Source of the DNA: Oscillospiraceae bacterium
GTDB lineage: Bacteria; Bacillota; Clostridia; Oscillospirales; Ruminococcaceae
Reading direction: 5' to 3'
Assembly: GCA_017991935.1 (NCBI GenBank)
Contig: JAGOPP010000008.1
Location: 1-64,000, forward strand
Length of the DNA stretch: 64,000 bases
The position numbers were made by a program, and so were the translations under genes. The notes beneath the pieces are model-generated. The model was not told where the DNA came from, did no database searches, and worked only from the letters and a program-made list of their open reading frames with translations. Below are positions 15,831 to 27,853 of this stretch, piece by piece (positions within the stretch are counted from its first letter, which is position 1; every line of letters starts with the position of its first letter).

Positions 15831-16191
15831 GGATTCCGGCACAGATACCCGGCGCGGCCTTAGGTTGCGCGAAAGCGGGCCGGACGGGAGCGATCCCCCG
15901 TGGCGGGCCGAGATCGTCACGCAAGAGAGATACTCCCGGCGTGCCAAGCGGGGCGGGGCACCGCGCCTTTCAGCGCGGGATTCCGGCACAGATACCCGGC
16001 GCGGCCTTAGGTTGCGCGAAAGCGGAGCGGGCGAAGGCGATTCCCCGTGGCGGGCCGAGATCGTCACGCAAGAGAGATACTCCCGGCGTGCCAAGCGGGG
16101 CGGGGCACCGCGCCTTTCAGCGCGGGATTCCGGCATAGATGCCCGGCGCGGCCTTAGGTTGCGCGAAAGCGGGCCGGACGGGAGCGATCCA
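15831..16191. repeat. 147-bp intergenic tandem repeat, about 2.5 copies
   Basis: The unit beginning GGATTCCGGCA recurs at 15831, 15978 and 16125, exactly 147 bp apart; the third copy is cut near 16191. Copies differ by a few substitutions (for instance GGCCGGACGGG against GAGCGGGCGAA). The period is a multiple of three, so open frames run through it on both strands, but these lack ribosome sites and look like by-products. The preceding 15593-15830 is gene-free, GC-rich and has no other feature I can name. Confidence 0.85.
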
Positions 16192-20766: not shown

Positions 20767-20800
20767 GATCGTCATTTTACGGAAAACGCTTTTTGATACC

Positions 20801-21179
20801 GGAGGCCATCCGGCGGCATGGGGGGCAACGCCAAAAAAGCATCCCCGCCGCGCGGAGCGGGCGGCGTCTATCCGATCGCCTTCTCGCAGTCCGAGGAACT
20901 TCGACCGCGCGCCCACGAAAAACGGGTTATATCCCGGAAAGCTCTTTTTGACGCCGGAGGCCATCCGGCGGCATGGGGGGCAACGTCAAAAGTCATCCCC
21001 ACCGCGCGGAGCGGGCGGCGTCTATCCGATCGCCTTCTCGCAGTCCGAGGAACTTCAACCGCGCGCCCACGAAAAACGGGTTATATCCCGGAAAGCTCTT
21101 TTTGCCGCCGGAGGCCATCCGGCGGCATGGGGGGCAACGTCAAAAGCCATCCCCGCCGCGCGGAGCGGGCGGCGTCCTT
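20801..21179. repeat. About 154-bp intergenic tandem repeat, 2.5 copies
   Basis: A unit beginning GGAGGCCATCCGGCGGCATG recurs at 20801, 20956 and 21110 (periods 155 and 154). The one-base difference in period lies in an A run after GGCAACG. Each copy holds a CCGGAGGCCATCCGG hairpin and the string CTTCTCGCAGTCCGAGGAAC. The array lies between the acyltransferase terminator and the 3' end of the DHHW gene. Frames through it are in different phases in different copies and lack ribosome sites, so I do not call genes here. Confidence 0.85.
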
Positions 21180-21238: not shown

Positions 21239-22342
21239 TCACTCGGCGAGCGACGTCAGGCGGCCGAGGCCGGCCCCCTCCAAAAACGTTTCGGCGCTGT
21301 ACGCGAAGAGGACCTGCTGGTAGTCGGAGACCCGGATCGCCGCGAGCATCCCGTCCGTGGCGGCGCCGAGGTCGACATAGGTGATATGCGCGTAGTGGTT
21401 CGCGAGAAACGGCAGCCAGCTCTTCGCCGTCGCGTCGCCGAAGACGAGCAGCCACTCCTCGTACGGGCCGTCCGTCTCGATCTCCGTGACCGGGGCAAGC
21501 CCGCCGAGCAGGACGTCCGTGGGGTCCTGCGAGGCCGTCTGCCGGTCGTACAGGCCCTGCTGCTCCGTGCGGACACCGTCCGCGGACGTGTGGGCCACGG
21601 AATATTCGCGCTCGTACTGCGTGTACGCGTACATGGCGACGAAATCGCCGGCCGCGTAATCCGCGAGCACGCCCTTCGCCAAGGAGCCCTTGAAACCGTG
21701 GGCGGCGTAGGCGACGTTGAAATCGGAGATCGGCTTCCCGCGCAGATTTAAGGCGGAGGCGTATTCGCTGTAAACGTAATACCCGCCCAGCGCGGTCAGG
21801 TTCTCCTCCGTGTTGTAATAGATATACTCGCCGCGGTGGGCGAAAAGGGACTGGTAGACGTCGGCGGTCACGGCCTTGCCAGAGAGCGTCGCGTACGCCT
21901 CGGAGATCATGTGGCGCTGGTTGTAAAGGCGGTCCGCGGCCGCGCTGTTGATCTCCTGCTGCTTGATGACGGCGGCCGTCGGGATCAGCATGACGCAGGC
22001 GCCGACCCGGTGATCCGAAACAAAATTCCCGATCGCCTCCGCCGAGGCGGCGGTGACGTCCGTCTCCGGCGGCTCGATATTTTTGAGCAGGGAGCCGTCC
22101 TCGCCGAGAAAGACGCCGTCAAACTCGCGGCGGCCGGAGAGATAGAGCAGGCGGTCCGCCAACAGGGAGAGCTCGTCCCGCCCGGGCAGGTTTTTGGAGA
22201 AAAACGACTCCATCCCGGCGGAAAAATCGCCCGACGAGAGCGCCCCGAAGCTCGGGATCGGGAAATCCGTCCCATGAAGCAGCGCGAGAATCCCGGAAAC
22301 CGCGAGCGCGGAAGCCAAAAACAGGGCTACGATTTTTTTCAT
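21239..22342 (-). CDS. DHHW/AlgX-like exported protein with degenerate active site
   Basis: A 367-residue protein with an N-terminal signal anchor (residues 3-22) and the fold order of the DHHW family, SGNH-like O-acyltransfer partners of MBOAT proteins. The segment that normally reads DHHWT..GAYYAY appears as EENLTALGGYYVY (E179-Y190), and the segment that normally reads KDSYAN..PFL appears as GDATAKSWLPFL (302-313), so the catalytic Asp, His and Ser are all replaced. The rest of the fold is well kept. AAGGAGG precedes the ATG. It follows the MBOAT gene by 35 bp. It is probably non-catalytic, perhaps a scaffold; this rests on my recollection of the family motifs. Confidence 0.8.
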   Translation of the reverse strand: MKKIVALFLASALAVSGILALLHGTDFPIPSFGALSSGDFSAGMESFFSKNLPGRDELSLLADRLLYLSGRREFDGVFLGEDGSLLKNIEPPETDVTAASAEAIGNFVSDHRVGACVMLIPTAAVIKQQEINSAAADRLYNQRHMISEAYATLSGKAVTADVYQSLFAHRGEYIYYNTEENLTALGGYYVYSEYASALNLRGKPISDFNVAYAAHGFKGSLAKGVLADYAAGDFVAMYAYTQYEREYSVAHTSADGVRTEQQGLYDRQTASQDPTDVLLGGLAPVTEIETDGPYEEWLLVFGDATAKSWLPFLANHYAHITYVDLGAATDGMLAAIRVSDYQQVLFAYSAETFLEGAGLGRLTSLAE

Positions 22343-22377
22343 GGCGGCACCTCCTTTCTTAAAATAACGGGCCCCGG

Positions 22378-23697
22378 TCAGAGCAGATAGGCCGTGCAGA
22401 GGGCGAGCAAAACCGTGCTCACGACGAGGTCGCTGGCGCCCGCGGCGGCGGGGCTGCGGCGGCGCAGGCGGTGGATGAGCATGCTCATAAAATTGGTCAG
22501 CAGGATGGCGCCCGCGACGAGCGGGATCATGCTGCCGGAGAGATCGTAGGCGGTCTCGGCGGTGGAGAAACTCGCGCCGAGCCCGAGCATCGCCCCAAAA
22601 TAGCGCGGGACTTTCGTCAGGGAATCCGCGGAGAAGATGACCATCGACAGCATCGTGACGCAGAAGGTGTAGATGCCGGCGAAAAACTTCGGGATCCGCT
22701 CAAGATAGCGCCCGAGGAACCATTTTTCCAGCAAAATGAACGCCGCGATGTAGACGCCCCAGACGATGAAATTCATCCGGATGCCGAACCAGACCCCGGC
22801 CAGCATGCAGACGAGCGACGTGTTGACCGCGTATTGCAGCGGCGTCGGCTTTTCGGATTTGAGATTATCATAGACGTAATAATGGAAAAATTCCGTCACC
22901 GTCATGTTGAAGCGGGAAAAAAACTCCGTGACCGAGCCGCTCTGGAACGGAAACCAGAAGTTTTTGGGCAGCTCGAGGCCGAAGCAGAGCCCGAGCCCGC
23001 GCGCCATGTCGCAGAAGCCCGAGAGATCGAAGAAAATTTTCATCGCGAAGGTGATCATCACCATCCACGCGCCGACCACCGTCAGCTCGTCCGCCGCCTT
23101 GAGCTCCGCGCAGACCTTGCCGATCGGCACCGACAGCAGCAGGTATTTCGCGAGGCCGCGGATGAATTTCGCGAGGCCGTCGCCGATCTGCGAGAGCGTC
23201 GTCTCGGGCGAAAGCGGCTTTTTCCAGAGGTTGTCGATCCGCACGAGCGGCCCGCGGTAAAGCTTGGCGAAAAAGCCGAGAAACAGTCCGAAACGGAAAA
23301 AATTCGTCTCGTATTCCGCGTCATATTTATAGACGTCCACGAGATACCCGAGCGACGTGAAGGCGACGACCATCGTCCCAAGCGGAACCGCCTGCCCGGT
23401 GATTTGATTGAGCGCGGAAAACCAGATCATCACGGAGGCGTTCGCCACGATCCCGAATATGTAGAGCGACTTGCGCAGCCTCGGGCGCGCCTCCGCCCTG
23501 CGCATCCCCTCGGAGAGCGCGTAGGAAAGCGCGAGCACCGCGCAGAACATCGGAAAATGGCCCGGCTGCGCCAAAGCGTAGAAAGCGGCGGAGATCCAAA
23601 ACAGCGCGGCGCTTCTCCATCTCGCGGGCACGATCAAAAAGAGCGCCAGAGAGACCGGCAGAAACAGGTATAGAAATGTAAGGCTGTAAAGCTGCAC
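22378..23697 (-). CDS. MBOAT family membrane protein (AlgI/DltB-like), catalytic His missing
   Basis: A 439-residue polytopic protein with about 11 helices, similar in layout to AlgI/DltB O-acyltransferases. The segment LVCMLAGVWFGIRMNFIVWGVY (residues 295-316) matches the AlgI core LLCGLWHGA..NFVLWGLYHG, but the invariant His is Phe (F304), the second conserved His position is Ile (I317), and the RRWHIS motif reads SRFNMT (262-266). The rest aligns well, including YRGPLVRI and DLSGFCDMARGLGLCFG. The GTG at 23697 has GGAGGG 5 bp upstream. It is paired with the degenerate DHHW protein downstream. Either both have a new function or the pair is non-catalytic. Confidence 0.82.
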   Translation of the reverse strand: MQLYSLTFLYLFLPVSLALFLIVPARWRSAALFWISAAFYALAQPGHFPMFCAVLALSYALSEGMRRAEARPRLRKSLYIFGIVANASVMIWFSALNQITGQAVPLGTMVVAFTSLGYLVDVYKYDAEYETNFFRFGLFLGFFAKLYRGPLVRIDNLWKKPLSPETTLSQIGDGLAKFIRGLAKYLLLSVPIGKVCAELKAADELTVVGAWMVMITFAMKIFFDLSGFCDMARGLGLCFGLELPKNFWFPFQSGSVTEFFSRFNMTVTEFFHYYVYDNLKSEKPTPLQYAVNTSLVCMLAGVWFGIRMNFIVWGVYIAAFILLEKWFLGRYLERIPKFFAGIYTFCVTMLSMVIFSADSLTKVPRYFGAMLGLGASFSTAETAYDLSGSMIPLVAGAILLTNFMSMLIHRLRRRSPAAAGASDLVVSTVLLALCTAYLL

Positions 23698-23847: not shown

Positions 23848-23878
23848 ATTTCAATCCACACACCCCGCGAGGGGTGAC
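23848..23878 (-). CRISPR. Solitary CRISPR-like repeat (type I-C style)
   Basis: On the minus strand the 31 bases begin GTCACCCCTCGCGGGGTG and end GTGGATTGAAAT, which matches the form of type I-C repeats (GTCGC-type start, small GC hairpin, GTGGATTGAAAT end). Only one copy is present, so it is not an array. A weaker partial likeness (CCCTGTGAGGGTGTGA) lies about 40 bp away. No cas gene is in the window. Confidence 0.6.
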
Positions 23879-23942: not shown

Positions 23943-24617
23943 TCACTCCTCCGCGGAGGGCGGCTCCCCCGCCCCGGCGCGCAGCTCCCCCGCCTCGGCG
24001 CGGAGCTCCTCCACCGCGGAGCGAAGCTCCTCCGCCGTCGTCAGGACGGCGAGGACCTCCCCGAGGGATTTGGCCGAGAGGCGTTTGGGCAGGCGGTAAC
24101 GCTCGCAGACCCTCTCCCGGAGCAGACGCGAGCCCCTGCCGCCGGAGAGGCCGAGCGCATAAAGAAACGCCTTCGTGAGCGGCGCGGGCCGCTCCTCCGA
24201 GCCGGGGCGCTCCCCGGCGGCGTCCTCCCCGAGGCCGGCCGCCTCGAACGCATGGCACAGCGTCTCCGTGTCCATGCCCTCCACGCCGAGCAGACCCGCC
24301 TTCCCCGCGTGCGCCTTGCGCCGCTCCTTCCCGGGGATGTCCGGGATATAGATCTGCCGGATCTGCTCCGCCGGGATCGCCGAGGCGAGGTAATGACGCA
24401 GCTGGAACCCGGCCGGGTCGGAGTCCGTCAGCACGGCGATCCCGGTCTTCGCGGCGAGGGCGCGGATCATGGCGAGGCGCTCCTTATCGTTATAAATCCG
24501 GAAGCCGTCGAGCGCGAGAATGTTTCCCTCCACAAGCTCCGAGAGCCGGATTTTGTCGTATTTTCCCTCCACGATGAGGGTCTCTCTCAGCCGAAACGGG
24601 CCCCGAAATCGTTCCAA
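23943..24617 (-). CDS. rnmV: Ribonuclease M5-like Toprim protein
   Basis: A 224-residue protein with an N-terminal Toprim domain: the VEGKYDK motif (about residues 16-22) and DSDPAG (about 65-70) carry the metal-binding acidic residues. RNase M5 removes the 3' and 5' tails of 5S rRNA precursor, and this C-terminal layout (a Pro/Glu-rich end after a DUF4093-type helical domain) is the common Clostridia form. The C-terminus has AEELRSAVEELRAEAGELRAG repeats. The start is TTG at 24617 with GGGGGAA upstream, 2 bp after the holA stop. Coupled to holA and comEC. Confidence 0.82.
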   Translation of the reverse strand: MERFRGPFRLRETLIVEGKYDKIRLSELVEGNILALDGFRIYNDKERLAMIRALAAKTGIAVLTDSDPAGFQLRHYLASAIPAEQIRQIYIPDIPGKERRKAHAGKAGLLGVEGMDTETLCHAFEAAGLGEDAAGERPGSEERPAPLTKAFLYALGLSGGRGSRLLRERVCERYRLPKRLSAKSLGEVLAVLTTAEELRSAVEELRAEAGELRAGAGEPPSAEE

Positions 24618-24618
24618 A

Positions 24619-25683
24619 TCAGTTCCCCCGTCCGATCAAAAATAATCTGCCGACGGCCTCCTCGAGAACCGTCCTCGGGTCCGTGCCCGTGCTCTTGATC
24701 TTCCTGTCCGCCGCGAGCAGGACGTCGAGCATCCCGGAGAGCGCGGCGGCGCTGTAAAGAGCGCGGTTTCGCATCGCGCGCTCGGCAACGAATTCCCGCC
24801 CCGCGTAGGACTGCGGCCAGTCCTTCGCGAGATCCGACTTCGTCTTGCCGCAGGCGGCGGCGCACCTTGCCCGGAGCAGGTCGACATAGGTCCCGGAGAG
24901 ATTCGCAAGGATCGAGGAGGGCTCCTCCCCCATTGCGCAGAGCTCGTCGATCAGCGAAAACGCGCCCGCGAAATCGCCGCCCCGTACCTTGTCGGCGAGG
25001 TCGTAGATCCGCGCGTCCGGCGCCTCGCAGGTCACCTCCGCGACGATCCGCTCCGTCACTTTGCCATCCTTCGCGTACTCGGCGGCCTTTTTGGCCTCGT
25101 TTCGCACCGTGGCGCTGTCCGTCCCGCAGCGGGCGACCAGCGCGTAGGAGACCCCGCGGTCCATCGAGACGCCGTGAGCCTCGGCCTCCGCCTCCGCGAG
25201 CCTGCAAAGCTCGGCGGTGGTGTACGGCGCGCACAAGACGACGCCTCCGCCCTTTTTGTCGATCAGTTTGCGGAAAGAAACGTATTTTTCAAGTTTTTTC
25301 TTATCTTTTTTCGGCTCGGCGTCAACGGCGCTGTAAAGAAAGACGGCTGTCGCGCCGTTTTCGGCGCAGAGCTCGGTGACGAACTGCTCGAGCTTGCCGC
25401 GCTCTGTCTGGCTCAGCTTCTCGAGCGGCAGGTCCTCCGCGAGCACGCACCGCCGCCCGCCGTCGAAGGAGATCTCAAAGGCCGCGTCCGCGAGCGTGTC
25501 CGCCGAAATATTGCCGCTAAAGATGTGAAGGCCGGGCCCGACCTTTCCGCCCGACGCGAGGCTCGCGAGCGCGTCGGCAAATTTGCGCTTGCGGGCGGCG
25601 TCGCTGCCGTAAATAAAATAGACGGGCAAGGGGACCCCTAAGCGGATATGCCGCTGAAGTTCGTCGGCGGTTTTAAAAATCAA
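24619..25683 (-). CDS. holA: DNA polymerase III delta subunit
   Basis: The delta subunit of the clamp loader, which opens the beta sliding clamp. The 354 residues match the family: an N-terminal AAA-like domain (starting VYFIYGSDAARKRKFADAL), the middle lid domain and the C-terminal helical collar with the ARIYDLADKVRGGDFAGAFSLIDEL segment. The start is TTG at 25683 with AAAAGGGG about 10 bp upstream, 4 bp after the comEC stop. comEC-holA-rnmV order is usual in Firmicutes for the first two genes. Confidence 0.9.
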   Translation of the reverse strand: MIFKTADELQRHIRLGVPLPVYFIYGSDAARKRKFADALASLASGGKVGPGLHIFSGNISADTLADAAFEISFDGGRRCVLAEDLPLEKLSQTERGKLEQFVTELCAENGATAVFLYSAVDAEPKKDKKKLEKYVSFRKLIDKKGGGVVLCAPYTTAELCRLAEAEAEAHGVSMDRGVSYALVARCGTDSATVRNEAKKAAEYAKDGKVTERIVAEVTCEAPDARIYDLADKVRGGDFAGAFSLIDELCAMGEEPSSILANLSGTYVDLLRARCAAACGKTKSDLAKDWPQSYAGREFVAERAMRNRALYSAAALSGMLDVLLAADRKIKSTGTDPRTVLEEAVGRLFLIGRGN

Positions 25684-25687
25684 GCGC

Positions 25688-27853
25688 TCAGCCCCTTTTC
25701 ACGGTCTTCCCGCGGCAATAAAACGTCAGCCTGCCGGAGCCCGCGGGGACGATCTCCGCGGCCCCGCCGAACGTGCCGCCGCACCCGATGGTGACGAGGG
25801 AGCCGCACCGCAAAACGGAGAGCTCGTCCATCGACACCTCGCGGACCACGGCGATGTCCGGCCGGCGGTATTTCGCTTCGATGTCCATTATATCACATCC
25901 GCCGGAATAATATAAGATGGTGGCGTCCTCGGTCTCGACGGCGAAATCCTCCCCGCTGAAGAAGACCGCGCGGCCGCCGTTTCCGAGCACGACCTCCATC
26001 GGATAGGAGGCCGCCTGCGCCCCGGCGCGGGAGACGGAGGCGGCGTCCGAGAGCACCGCGAGCTCCGGGGCGTAGGCCTCCACGAGCCGGAGCTCCGCCG
26101 CGGCGTCCCCCTCGCCGGCCGAGACGAGCGCCGTGACCTCGCCGTCATACCCGGCGATCTTTCGGACGGAAAACACGTCGTCATAGCTAAGGTTCTCCGC
26201 GATCAGCAAGGTCCTGCCGCGCGCCGTGCAGGAGATCGCCGCGCCGTCCGAAAGCGGGACGACGCGGATCTCCGTGAGATCCTTTTTGAGCACGGACTCG
26301 CTGACGAGCCCCACGCAGAGCGCCGTCAGGGACAAAAGCGCCGCCAGTCTGCGAAAGCGCAGGCGCGTGTGAAACAGCCTCGGCATCAAAAAAAGCAGCG
26401 CGCTCCCCGCGATCCAGAGGTAGATCCAGCCGCTCTCCGCCGGGGCGATCGTGTCGGGTATCGCGGCAAACAGCCTCGCGACGCCGATGAGCACCGTGGA
26501 GAGGGCCCCCGCCAGCTTCGCGGACAACAGGCCGAGGCCGCCGAGCGCGGGCACCCCGCCGAGCACGGCGGCCGGAATGCTCAGATACATGGCGAGCATC
26601 GCGACCGGCCCGGCGACAAGGTTGGAGACAAGCCCGGCGAAGCTGACGCTGCCGTAAAACGCGGCGCAGACCGGCGCGGTGAAGCTCCACGCAGAGACCG
26701 AGACGCCGATATTCTGCAAAAGGAGGTCCGCCCGGCGGCGGGCCGCCCGGGTTTTAGAAAAGGAGCCCGGAATGAGCCTCCATAGCAGCCGCGCCAGCGG
26801 CTCCGCGCAGGTGACGATGCCGAGGCTGCCCGCCACGGACATCAAGAAGCCGCAGTCGCAGGCGGCCGCCGGGTCGACGAGCACCACAAGCGACGCGCCG
26901 AACGCGAGCGAGCTTGGGGGATCCGTCTCCGAGTCGGTGAGCACCGCGACATACCGCGTGAGCGTCATAGACGCCGCGCGCAGGACGGACATGCCGAGCC
27001 CGGCCGCCGCCGCGTAGAGAACGGTCACAAGGATCAGCAAAACGGCCTTCTTTTTCTCCCCCATATGCGAAAGGGAGAGCAGTCGCTCCGCGAACCACGC
27101 GATCGCCACCATATTCATGCCCGAGACGGAGAGCACGGCCGACATGCCCGCCCGGCGAAACGCGTCCGTGATGCCCGCGTCGAGATCGTCCCCGATGCCC
27201 AAAACCATCTCCTCGAGCAGATGGAGCGGGTCCCCGGATAGGTATTCGCCCAGCGAGTCCGCAAACCACCGCCGATAAGCGGCGAGCGCCGTCGCGGGCG
27301 TCACGCGATTTTCCTCTAAGACCGTCGGCTCCCCGACGAAGGAGGCGTAGGCCTTGATCCCGAAGGCGCGCTCCGACGTGCGCTCGGCAAACGTGCCGCT
27401 CTCTTCCTCCTGCCCGTAAAACAGGGCCGTCCCCGCGATCAGATCCCCGGGCTCCACGTCGTAATCCCCGTAGCCGCTCACCCGGACCCGGATGCCCTGC
27501 GGCGCGCCGTGCGCCGCGACGGAGCGCGTGCCGACCGTGAAGCGCGTGCGGCCGCTGTCGCTCTCGGCCTCCTCCACCACGCCGGTGAAGGCGATCTCCC
27601 GCCCGGCGAGGGAGCGGACCGGGTAATAAAACAGGCCGAGGTAGCCCGAAATCCACAAAAACGCGGCCGCCGCCGAGAGCGAAACCGCGAGCGCGCGCTT
27701 TTGCCTCCAGACAAAGCGAAAAAAGACGGACAAAAACAGCGCCGTCGCCGCCGCCGCGAGATCCACGGTCAGACCGAGGAAGGACGCGGCAAATGTGCCG
27801 GCCAAAAACGAATATCCCGTCCAGCAGAAAAGACGCCGGATCGGCCGTTCCAT
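25688..27853 (-). CDS. comEC: ComEC/Rec2 DNA-uptake channel protein, C-terminal domain degenerate
   Basis: Membrane channel for transport of single-stranded DNA during natural transformation. The 721 residues show an N-terminal membrane pair, an OB-like extracytoplasmic domain, the competence domain with VLSVSGMNMVAI (about residues 238-249) and several helices up to about 520. The C-terminal domain (about 545-715) has the shape of the metallo-beta-lactamase part but the metal motif normally written HxHxDH reads SAGEGDAAAE; the histidines are gone. It therefore probably cannot cut DNA itself. The ATG at 27853 follows AAAGAGGGT. Promoter at 27887-27915. First gene of comEC-holA-rnmV. Confidence 0.87.
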   Translation of the reverse strand: MERPIRRLFCWTGYSFLAGTFAASFLGLTVDLAAAATALFLSVFFRFVWRQKRALAVSLSAAAAFLWISGYLGLFYYPVRSLAGREIAFTGVVEEAESDSGRTRFTVGTRSVAAHGAPQGIRVRVSGYGDYDVEPGDLIAGTALFYGQEEESGTFAERTSERAFGIKAYASFVGEPTVLEENRVTPATALAAYRRWFADSLGEYLSGDPLHLLEEMVLGIGDDLDAGITDAFRRAGMSAVLSVSGMNMVAIAWFAERLLSLSHMGEKKKAVLLILVTVLYAAAAGLGMSVLRAASMTLTRYVAVLTDSETDPPSSLAFGASLVVLVDPAAACDCGFLMSVAGSLGIVTCAEPLARLLWRLIPGSFSKTRAARRRADLLLQNIGVSVSAWSFTAPVCAAFYGSVSFAGLVSNLVAGPVAMLAMYLSIPAAVLGGVPALGGLGLLSAKLAGALSTVLIGVARLFAAIPDTIAPAESGWIYLWIAGSALLFLMPRLFHTRLRFRRLAALLSLTALCVGLVSESVLKKDLTEIRVVPLSDGAAISCTARGRTLLIAENLSYDDVFSVRKIAGYDGEVTALVSAGEGDAAAELRLVEAYAPELAVLSDAASVSRAGAQAASYPMEVVLGNGGRAVFFSGEDFAVETEDATILYYSGGCDIMDIEAKYRRPDIAVVREVSMDELSVLRCGSLVTIGCGGTFGGAAEIVPAGSGRLTFYCRGKTVKRG

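Follow-up and report, generated by a model that had tools for sequence, protein, structure and literature searches.

An MBOAT-SGNH protein pair without catalytic residues, conserved at one locus in Oscillospiraceae and probably retained for a non-catalytic role

Why would bacteria keep a pair of O-acyltransferase genes whose products have lost the residues for acyl transfer? Pairs of an MBOAT and an SGNH protein have so far been studied only as acyl-relay enzymes, in which an acyl group passes from acyl-CoA via the MBOAT His, a C-terminal Tyr and the SGNH Ser to an envelope polymer. In the 64,000-nucleotide stretch of an Oscillospiraceae genome analyzed here (the window), two neighboring minus-strand genes encode such a pair, and a first-pass annotation, made from the sequence alone, had proposed that both proteins lost their catalytic residues in one event and turned into a scaffold, a sensor or a transporter. 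The loss is real and larger than it stated: the missing C-terminal motif, a Gly at an otherwise conserved Arg and some 30 changed MBOAT columns, all described below, had been overlooked.

The MBOAT gene (22378–23697, minus strand) starts with GTG and encodes a catalytically dead protein of 439 residues that belongs to the MBOAT superfamily by both profile and fold. Pfam PF03062 scores 39.8 bits against a curated cut-off of 27, and the predicted model (pLDDT 83) has the DltB structures 6bug and 8jem as its best structural matches (6bug: E 1e-11, TM about 0.7); the NCBIfam dltB equivalog TIGR04091, at 98.2 bits, falls short of its cut-off of 375. As the first-pass annotation had it, Phe304 (codon 22786–22788) occupies the position of the invariant catalytic His (DltB His336), which is His in 48 of 48 live relatives and Phe or Tyr across the window's clade. 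The second His, however, had been misplaced. Ile317 (22747–22749), which was taken for it, stands in a column that is Phe or Tyr in intact relatives and His in AlgI-type MBOATs; the true counterpart of DltB His289 in the RWH motif is Asn264 (22906–22908), again His in 48 of 48 live relatives. At the C terminus (LLALCTAYLL and stop, 22378–22410), the acyl-shuttle motif FxYxxF, which all intact relatives have as NPFLYFRF, is missing because the protein ends about 25 residues early. About 30 further columns that are nearly invariant in live MBOATs are altered, among them Q114, S117, Q145, W260 and W263. In the related acyltransferase PatA, the Tyr of FxYxxF carries the acyl group, and auto-acetylation is lost when this Tyr is replaced by Phe or the catalytic His by Ala (PMC12148441). 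Neither FxYxxF nor a DltX-like microprotein was found in the window protein or near its locus; near 35 dead loci, likewise, no such microprotein that could supply the missing Tyr was seen, the scan of 569 kb yielding four chance-like matches, none of them consistent.

The partner gene (21239–22342, minus strand) begins 35 bp downstream of the MBOAT gene and encodes an extracytoplasmic protein of 367 residues with an N-terminal membrane anchor. Its membership of the DHHW family is equally clear from profile (Pfam PF14286, 72.6 bits against a cut-off of 25) and permuted SGNH fold, with a predicted model (pLDDT 80) that matches 4nzk (E 2e-18) and PatB1, 5v8d (E 9e-15). This protein, too, is catalytically dead. 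The alignments confirm the earlier reading of E179-E180-N181-L182 (21797–21808) at the D-H-H-W motif, which holds the catalytic Asp and His, and of Ala304 (21431–21433) at the nucleophilic Ser. They also place Gly326 (21365–21367) at the Arg of block II (DxRY), a column that is Arg in 98% of intact DHHW proteins and whose role in the oxyanion hole has been established in PatB1 (PMC9487903). No substitute His or Ser, the possibility that would have overturned the first-pass annotation, appears in either active site by DltB and PatB1 profile and predicted-fold matches. As the MBOAT has lost its His and the shuttle Tyr, and the SGNH protein its Ser, its His and the oxyanion Arg, every known step of the acyl relay would be disabled on paper, and none should be able to run.

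The same dead state, which the first-pass annotation had suggested looking for in relatives, is found across the genus and the family. The dead pair is found, in synteny, in each of the 15 species of the genus; in 14 of the 14 other species, an MBOAT with RFNMTV and WFGI and without FxYxxF lies beside a dead partner, and the genus copies share 46–51% protein identity with those of the window. Beyond the genus, dead pairs occur in more than 45 further Oscillospiraceae genomes, mostly at a comEC-holA-rnmV-MBOAT-DHHW locus, among them 20 family genomes from a wider profile search, 19 of which have the pair at this locus. Neither an error of sequencing nor one aberrant genome can explain the state, given the 15 genus species and the isolate genome of Merdimmobilis hominis, a named carrier. 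Our first set opposed 37 dead MBOATs (N/Q and F/Y at the His columns, no FxYxxF) to 48 live ones. Every dead MBOAT (37/37) is paired with a protein that lacks the His pair of DHHW, whereas none of the 48 live ones lacks either His or the Tyr motif, and Asp/His is present in those of their partners that were read. In an order-wide sample of 394 genomes, the profile scored more than 560 bits in three family members and at most 400 bits elsewhere; the core dead type therefore looks confined to the family. The window's genome itself also holds the second, intact pair that the first-pass annotation had proposed to look for, on contig C20, with WH, WHG, FLYYRF and DHHW. On another contig of this genome (C28, 160610–161353), a lone DHHW protein has an intact DHHW motif and an N-terminal half in which a Cys-containing sequence, CLVCGEVLAEAKGH, recurs several times; there was no MBOAT open reading frame in the 3.7 kb read near its gene.

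In the window, the pair lies behind rnmV (RNase M5-like, 23943–24617), holA (DNA polymerase III delta, 24619–25683) and a comEC-like competence gene (25688–27853), all on the minus strand, the names holA and comEC being assigned on the basis of the operon. Nearly all dead pairs sit behind apt-comEC-holA-rnmV. A functional link to ComEC was considered and dropped, as it would rest on synteny, which vertical descent can explain. Between rnmV and the MBOAT gene lies a lone CRISPR-like repeat, ATTTCAATCCACACACCCCGCGAGGGGTGAC (23848–23878), that looks like type I-C, and contig C33 of the same genome carries a 20-copy array of a variant with three mismatches. Two G+C-rich intergenic tandem arrays (20780–21176, 2.6 units of 154 bp; 15831–16190, 2.4 units of 147 bp) generate spurious open reading frames.

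But were the dead pairs once active at this very place? We located rnmV in 179 of 198 family genomes and read 80 further downstream stretches: 32 hold an intact pair and 25 a dead one (truncated at a contig end in two cases), 15 have no MBOAT, and the remainder are too short for judgement. As intact pairs occupy the same locus in 32 genomes, the dead pairs are in-situ orthologs of an active acyltransferase pair. The intact rnmV-linked pairs (for example at loci L024/L179, L185 and L245) are orthologous to the dead pair by position and sequence and differ from it in that all catalytic motifs are present.

How often catalysis was lost depends on the tree consulted. In the MBOAT tree, calculated without the motif columns, all dead copies form one clade (support 98), and the dead MBOATs sit on long branches. 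This single clade is at odds with the other trees and could reflect long-branch attraction or transfer. In a tree of comEC, holA and rnmV, used as a species proxy (81 genomes, 1160 columns), nine state changes are needed, at least eight of which are forced by well supported branches, and a single dead clade is rejected (AU p 4.6e-30), though not by rnmV alone (AU 0.056). The DHHW tree, again without the motif columns, nests L199, L253 and a seven-member L194/L206 group among live partners and forces at least four changes, a nesting that agrees with the species proxy. A single origin, favored by the MBOAT trees, was dropped after these two trees, and with it the claim of the first-pass annotation that the joint loss was one event. 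The best reading is that catalysis was lost repeatedly in place at one locus; transfer of dead copies between lineages is a possible alternative. For the fuller statement, that an acyltransferase complex turned independently at least four, and up to about nine, times at this locus into a conserved non-catalytic complex, we see the chances as even.

Half-dead intermediates show that the loss was stepwise and reached the MBOAT earlier than the SGNH protein. The MBOAT of L194 has N/Y and no Tyr, yet its partner retains D-S-H-W and Ser. At L240 and L246, the MBOAT ends in FYFFRF, a natural Tyr-to-Phe exchange at the acyl acceptor, as in the PatA variant that no longer auto-acetylates in vitro, and at L253 WHG is retained and the end reads FIMFQI. 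The replacements differ between lineages, with F, Y, L or M at the lost MBOAT His and E, D, R, G, A or Q at the lost SGNH Ser. Four core-type partners have Ser in the Ser column without His, and those of a few other lineages (L194, L202) retain Asp, His and Ser; judged by these residues, such partners may keep some SGNH activity. In genus g124 (L207, L209), the MBOAT at the rnmV locus is far drifted, with L and L, or L and M, at the catalytic columns, and unrelated open reading frames stand in place of the DHHW partner gene, a picture that suggests decay in this one lineage.

Could the pairs simply be pseudogenes on their way out? Selection on them is weaker than on live pairs, one genus has no partner gene, and some long-branch copies are far drifted, as decay would predict. 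For the window's genus, this is contradicted by full-length open reading frames with ribosome sites in 15 of 15 species, without a stop or frameshift in any copy; in the window, both frames are complete and both genes have a ribosome site, and the first-pass annotation, which had denied decay and named scattered frameshifts in relatives as the sign that would refute it, was right in this respect. Pairwise dN/dS within the genus is 0.11–0.25 for both genes, overall lower than for comEC and higher than for holA and rnmV; the other dead lineages range mostly from 0.06 to 0.3 (highest 0.41) and live pairs from 0.02 to 0.18, all rough values, as dS is often near saturation. Both dead genes are thus under purifying selection, weaker than that on live pairs, and decay strikes us as very improbable. 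Judged by their sequences, enzyme homologs that have lost their catalytic residues and remain under such selection are pseudoenzymes. Only slightly less remote is the possibility that the active site has moved and catalyzes a new reaction, for instance via Asn264 or the clade-specific Lys145. F263, N264, F304 and K145 are nearly invariant in the window's clade, so that the old chamber seems newly constrained, and other MBOATs tolerate Asn at the second position (PMC5831804). Independent lineages, however, have unrelated residues (L, M, Y, H) at these positions, the Ser and His columns of the partner are unconstrained, and neither protein has gained a new conserved His, Ser or Cys; substitutes that depend on the lineage are what lost catalysis, not new chemistry, would lead one to expect.

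A more serious contender, though still an unlikely one in our estimation, is that the dead pair exists to regulate, or to act as a decoy for, an intact MBOAT-SGNH pair encoded at another site of the genome, by competing for the same polymer or in mixed complexes. The idea takes up the likeness to HHATL, a His-less mammalian MBOAT said to regulate Hedgehog signaling negatively, and would suit the intact C20 pair of the window's genome. Among dead-locus genomes, 37 of 39 encode another MBOAT elsewhere; among live-locus genomes, 21 of 32 do (Fisher p 0.002, kinship ignored). This association fits a regulator of a live pair and equally a loss permitted by redundancy, which alone predicts it. In one genome (G179, 95% complete), the dead MBOAT is the only PF03062 match, and another (G160, 100%) has the locus copy only, with the Tyr lost and WHG kept. 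Regulation of an intact paralog in every case is weakened by the former, where no other MBOAT was found.

The reading that we consider probable is that the pair is a retained, non-catalytic pseudoenzyme complex of MBOAT and SGNH protein in the membrane, a scaffold or binding platform derived from an active O-acyltransferase. The loss of activity, the formation of a complex and the scaffold or binding role are all inferred from sequence. The ancestor would have been an active MBOAT-SGNH O-acyltransferase at the same comEC-holA-rnmV-MBOAT-DHHW place, and its complex may already have done something besides catalysis, for example bound a polymer or lipid of the envelope or held other envelope proteins; this second role alone would now be under selection. 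A non-catalytic role would be the simplest account of the kept fold, pairing, gene order and selection together with the repeated loss, and a membrane platform is proposed because the catalytic residues drift differently in each lineage, while fold, pairing and position persist. The scaffold of the first-pass annotation is thereby favored as the least demanding reading; there is no evidence for its sensor or transporter.

Finally, we would like to place the pair beside known systems. DltB-DltX-DltD, which serves teichoic acid D-alanylation, likewise combines an MBOAT fold with an SGNH protein, but in DltB both His are present, the shuttle Tyr resides on DltX, and the window pair has no dltA or dltC neighbors. 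PatA1-PatB1 of the Bacillus cereus group (SCWP O-acetylation) and PatA-PatB are also MBOAT and SGNH pairs; PatB1 belongs to the DHHW family, and the window partner shares a PatB1-like fold, whereas the His, the FxYxxF Tyr, the Ser, the Asp/His and the oxyanion Arg are missing in the window pair. Nothing in the open-licence literature searched describes a dead MBOAT-SGNH pair in bacteria or, HHATL apart, another MBOAT kept without the invariant His. HHATL has Leu at that position and is retained (PMC5831804); it is a single eukaryotic gene, whereas in the bacterial pair the extracytoplasmic transferase is dead as well and the losses are repeated and independent.

For the family, the finding means that genes at this locus are misannotated as 'O-acyltransferase' in a large share of genomes. 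The series from fully active via half-dead to fully dead pairs, at one locus of related gut bacteria, offers a comparison by which the catalytic and structural roles of the complex can be separated. If the proposed reading is true, MBOAT-SGNH pairs would have an unsuspected second function free of acyl transfer, one that may be general and present in active pairs as well.
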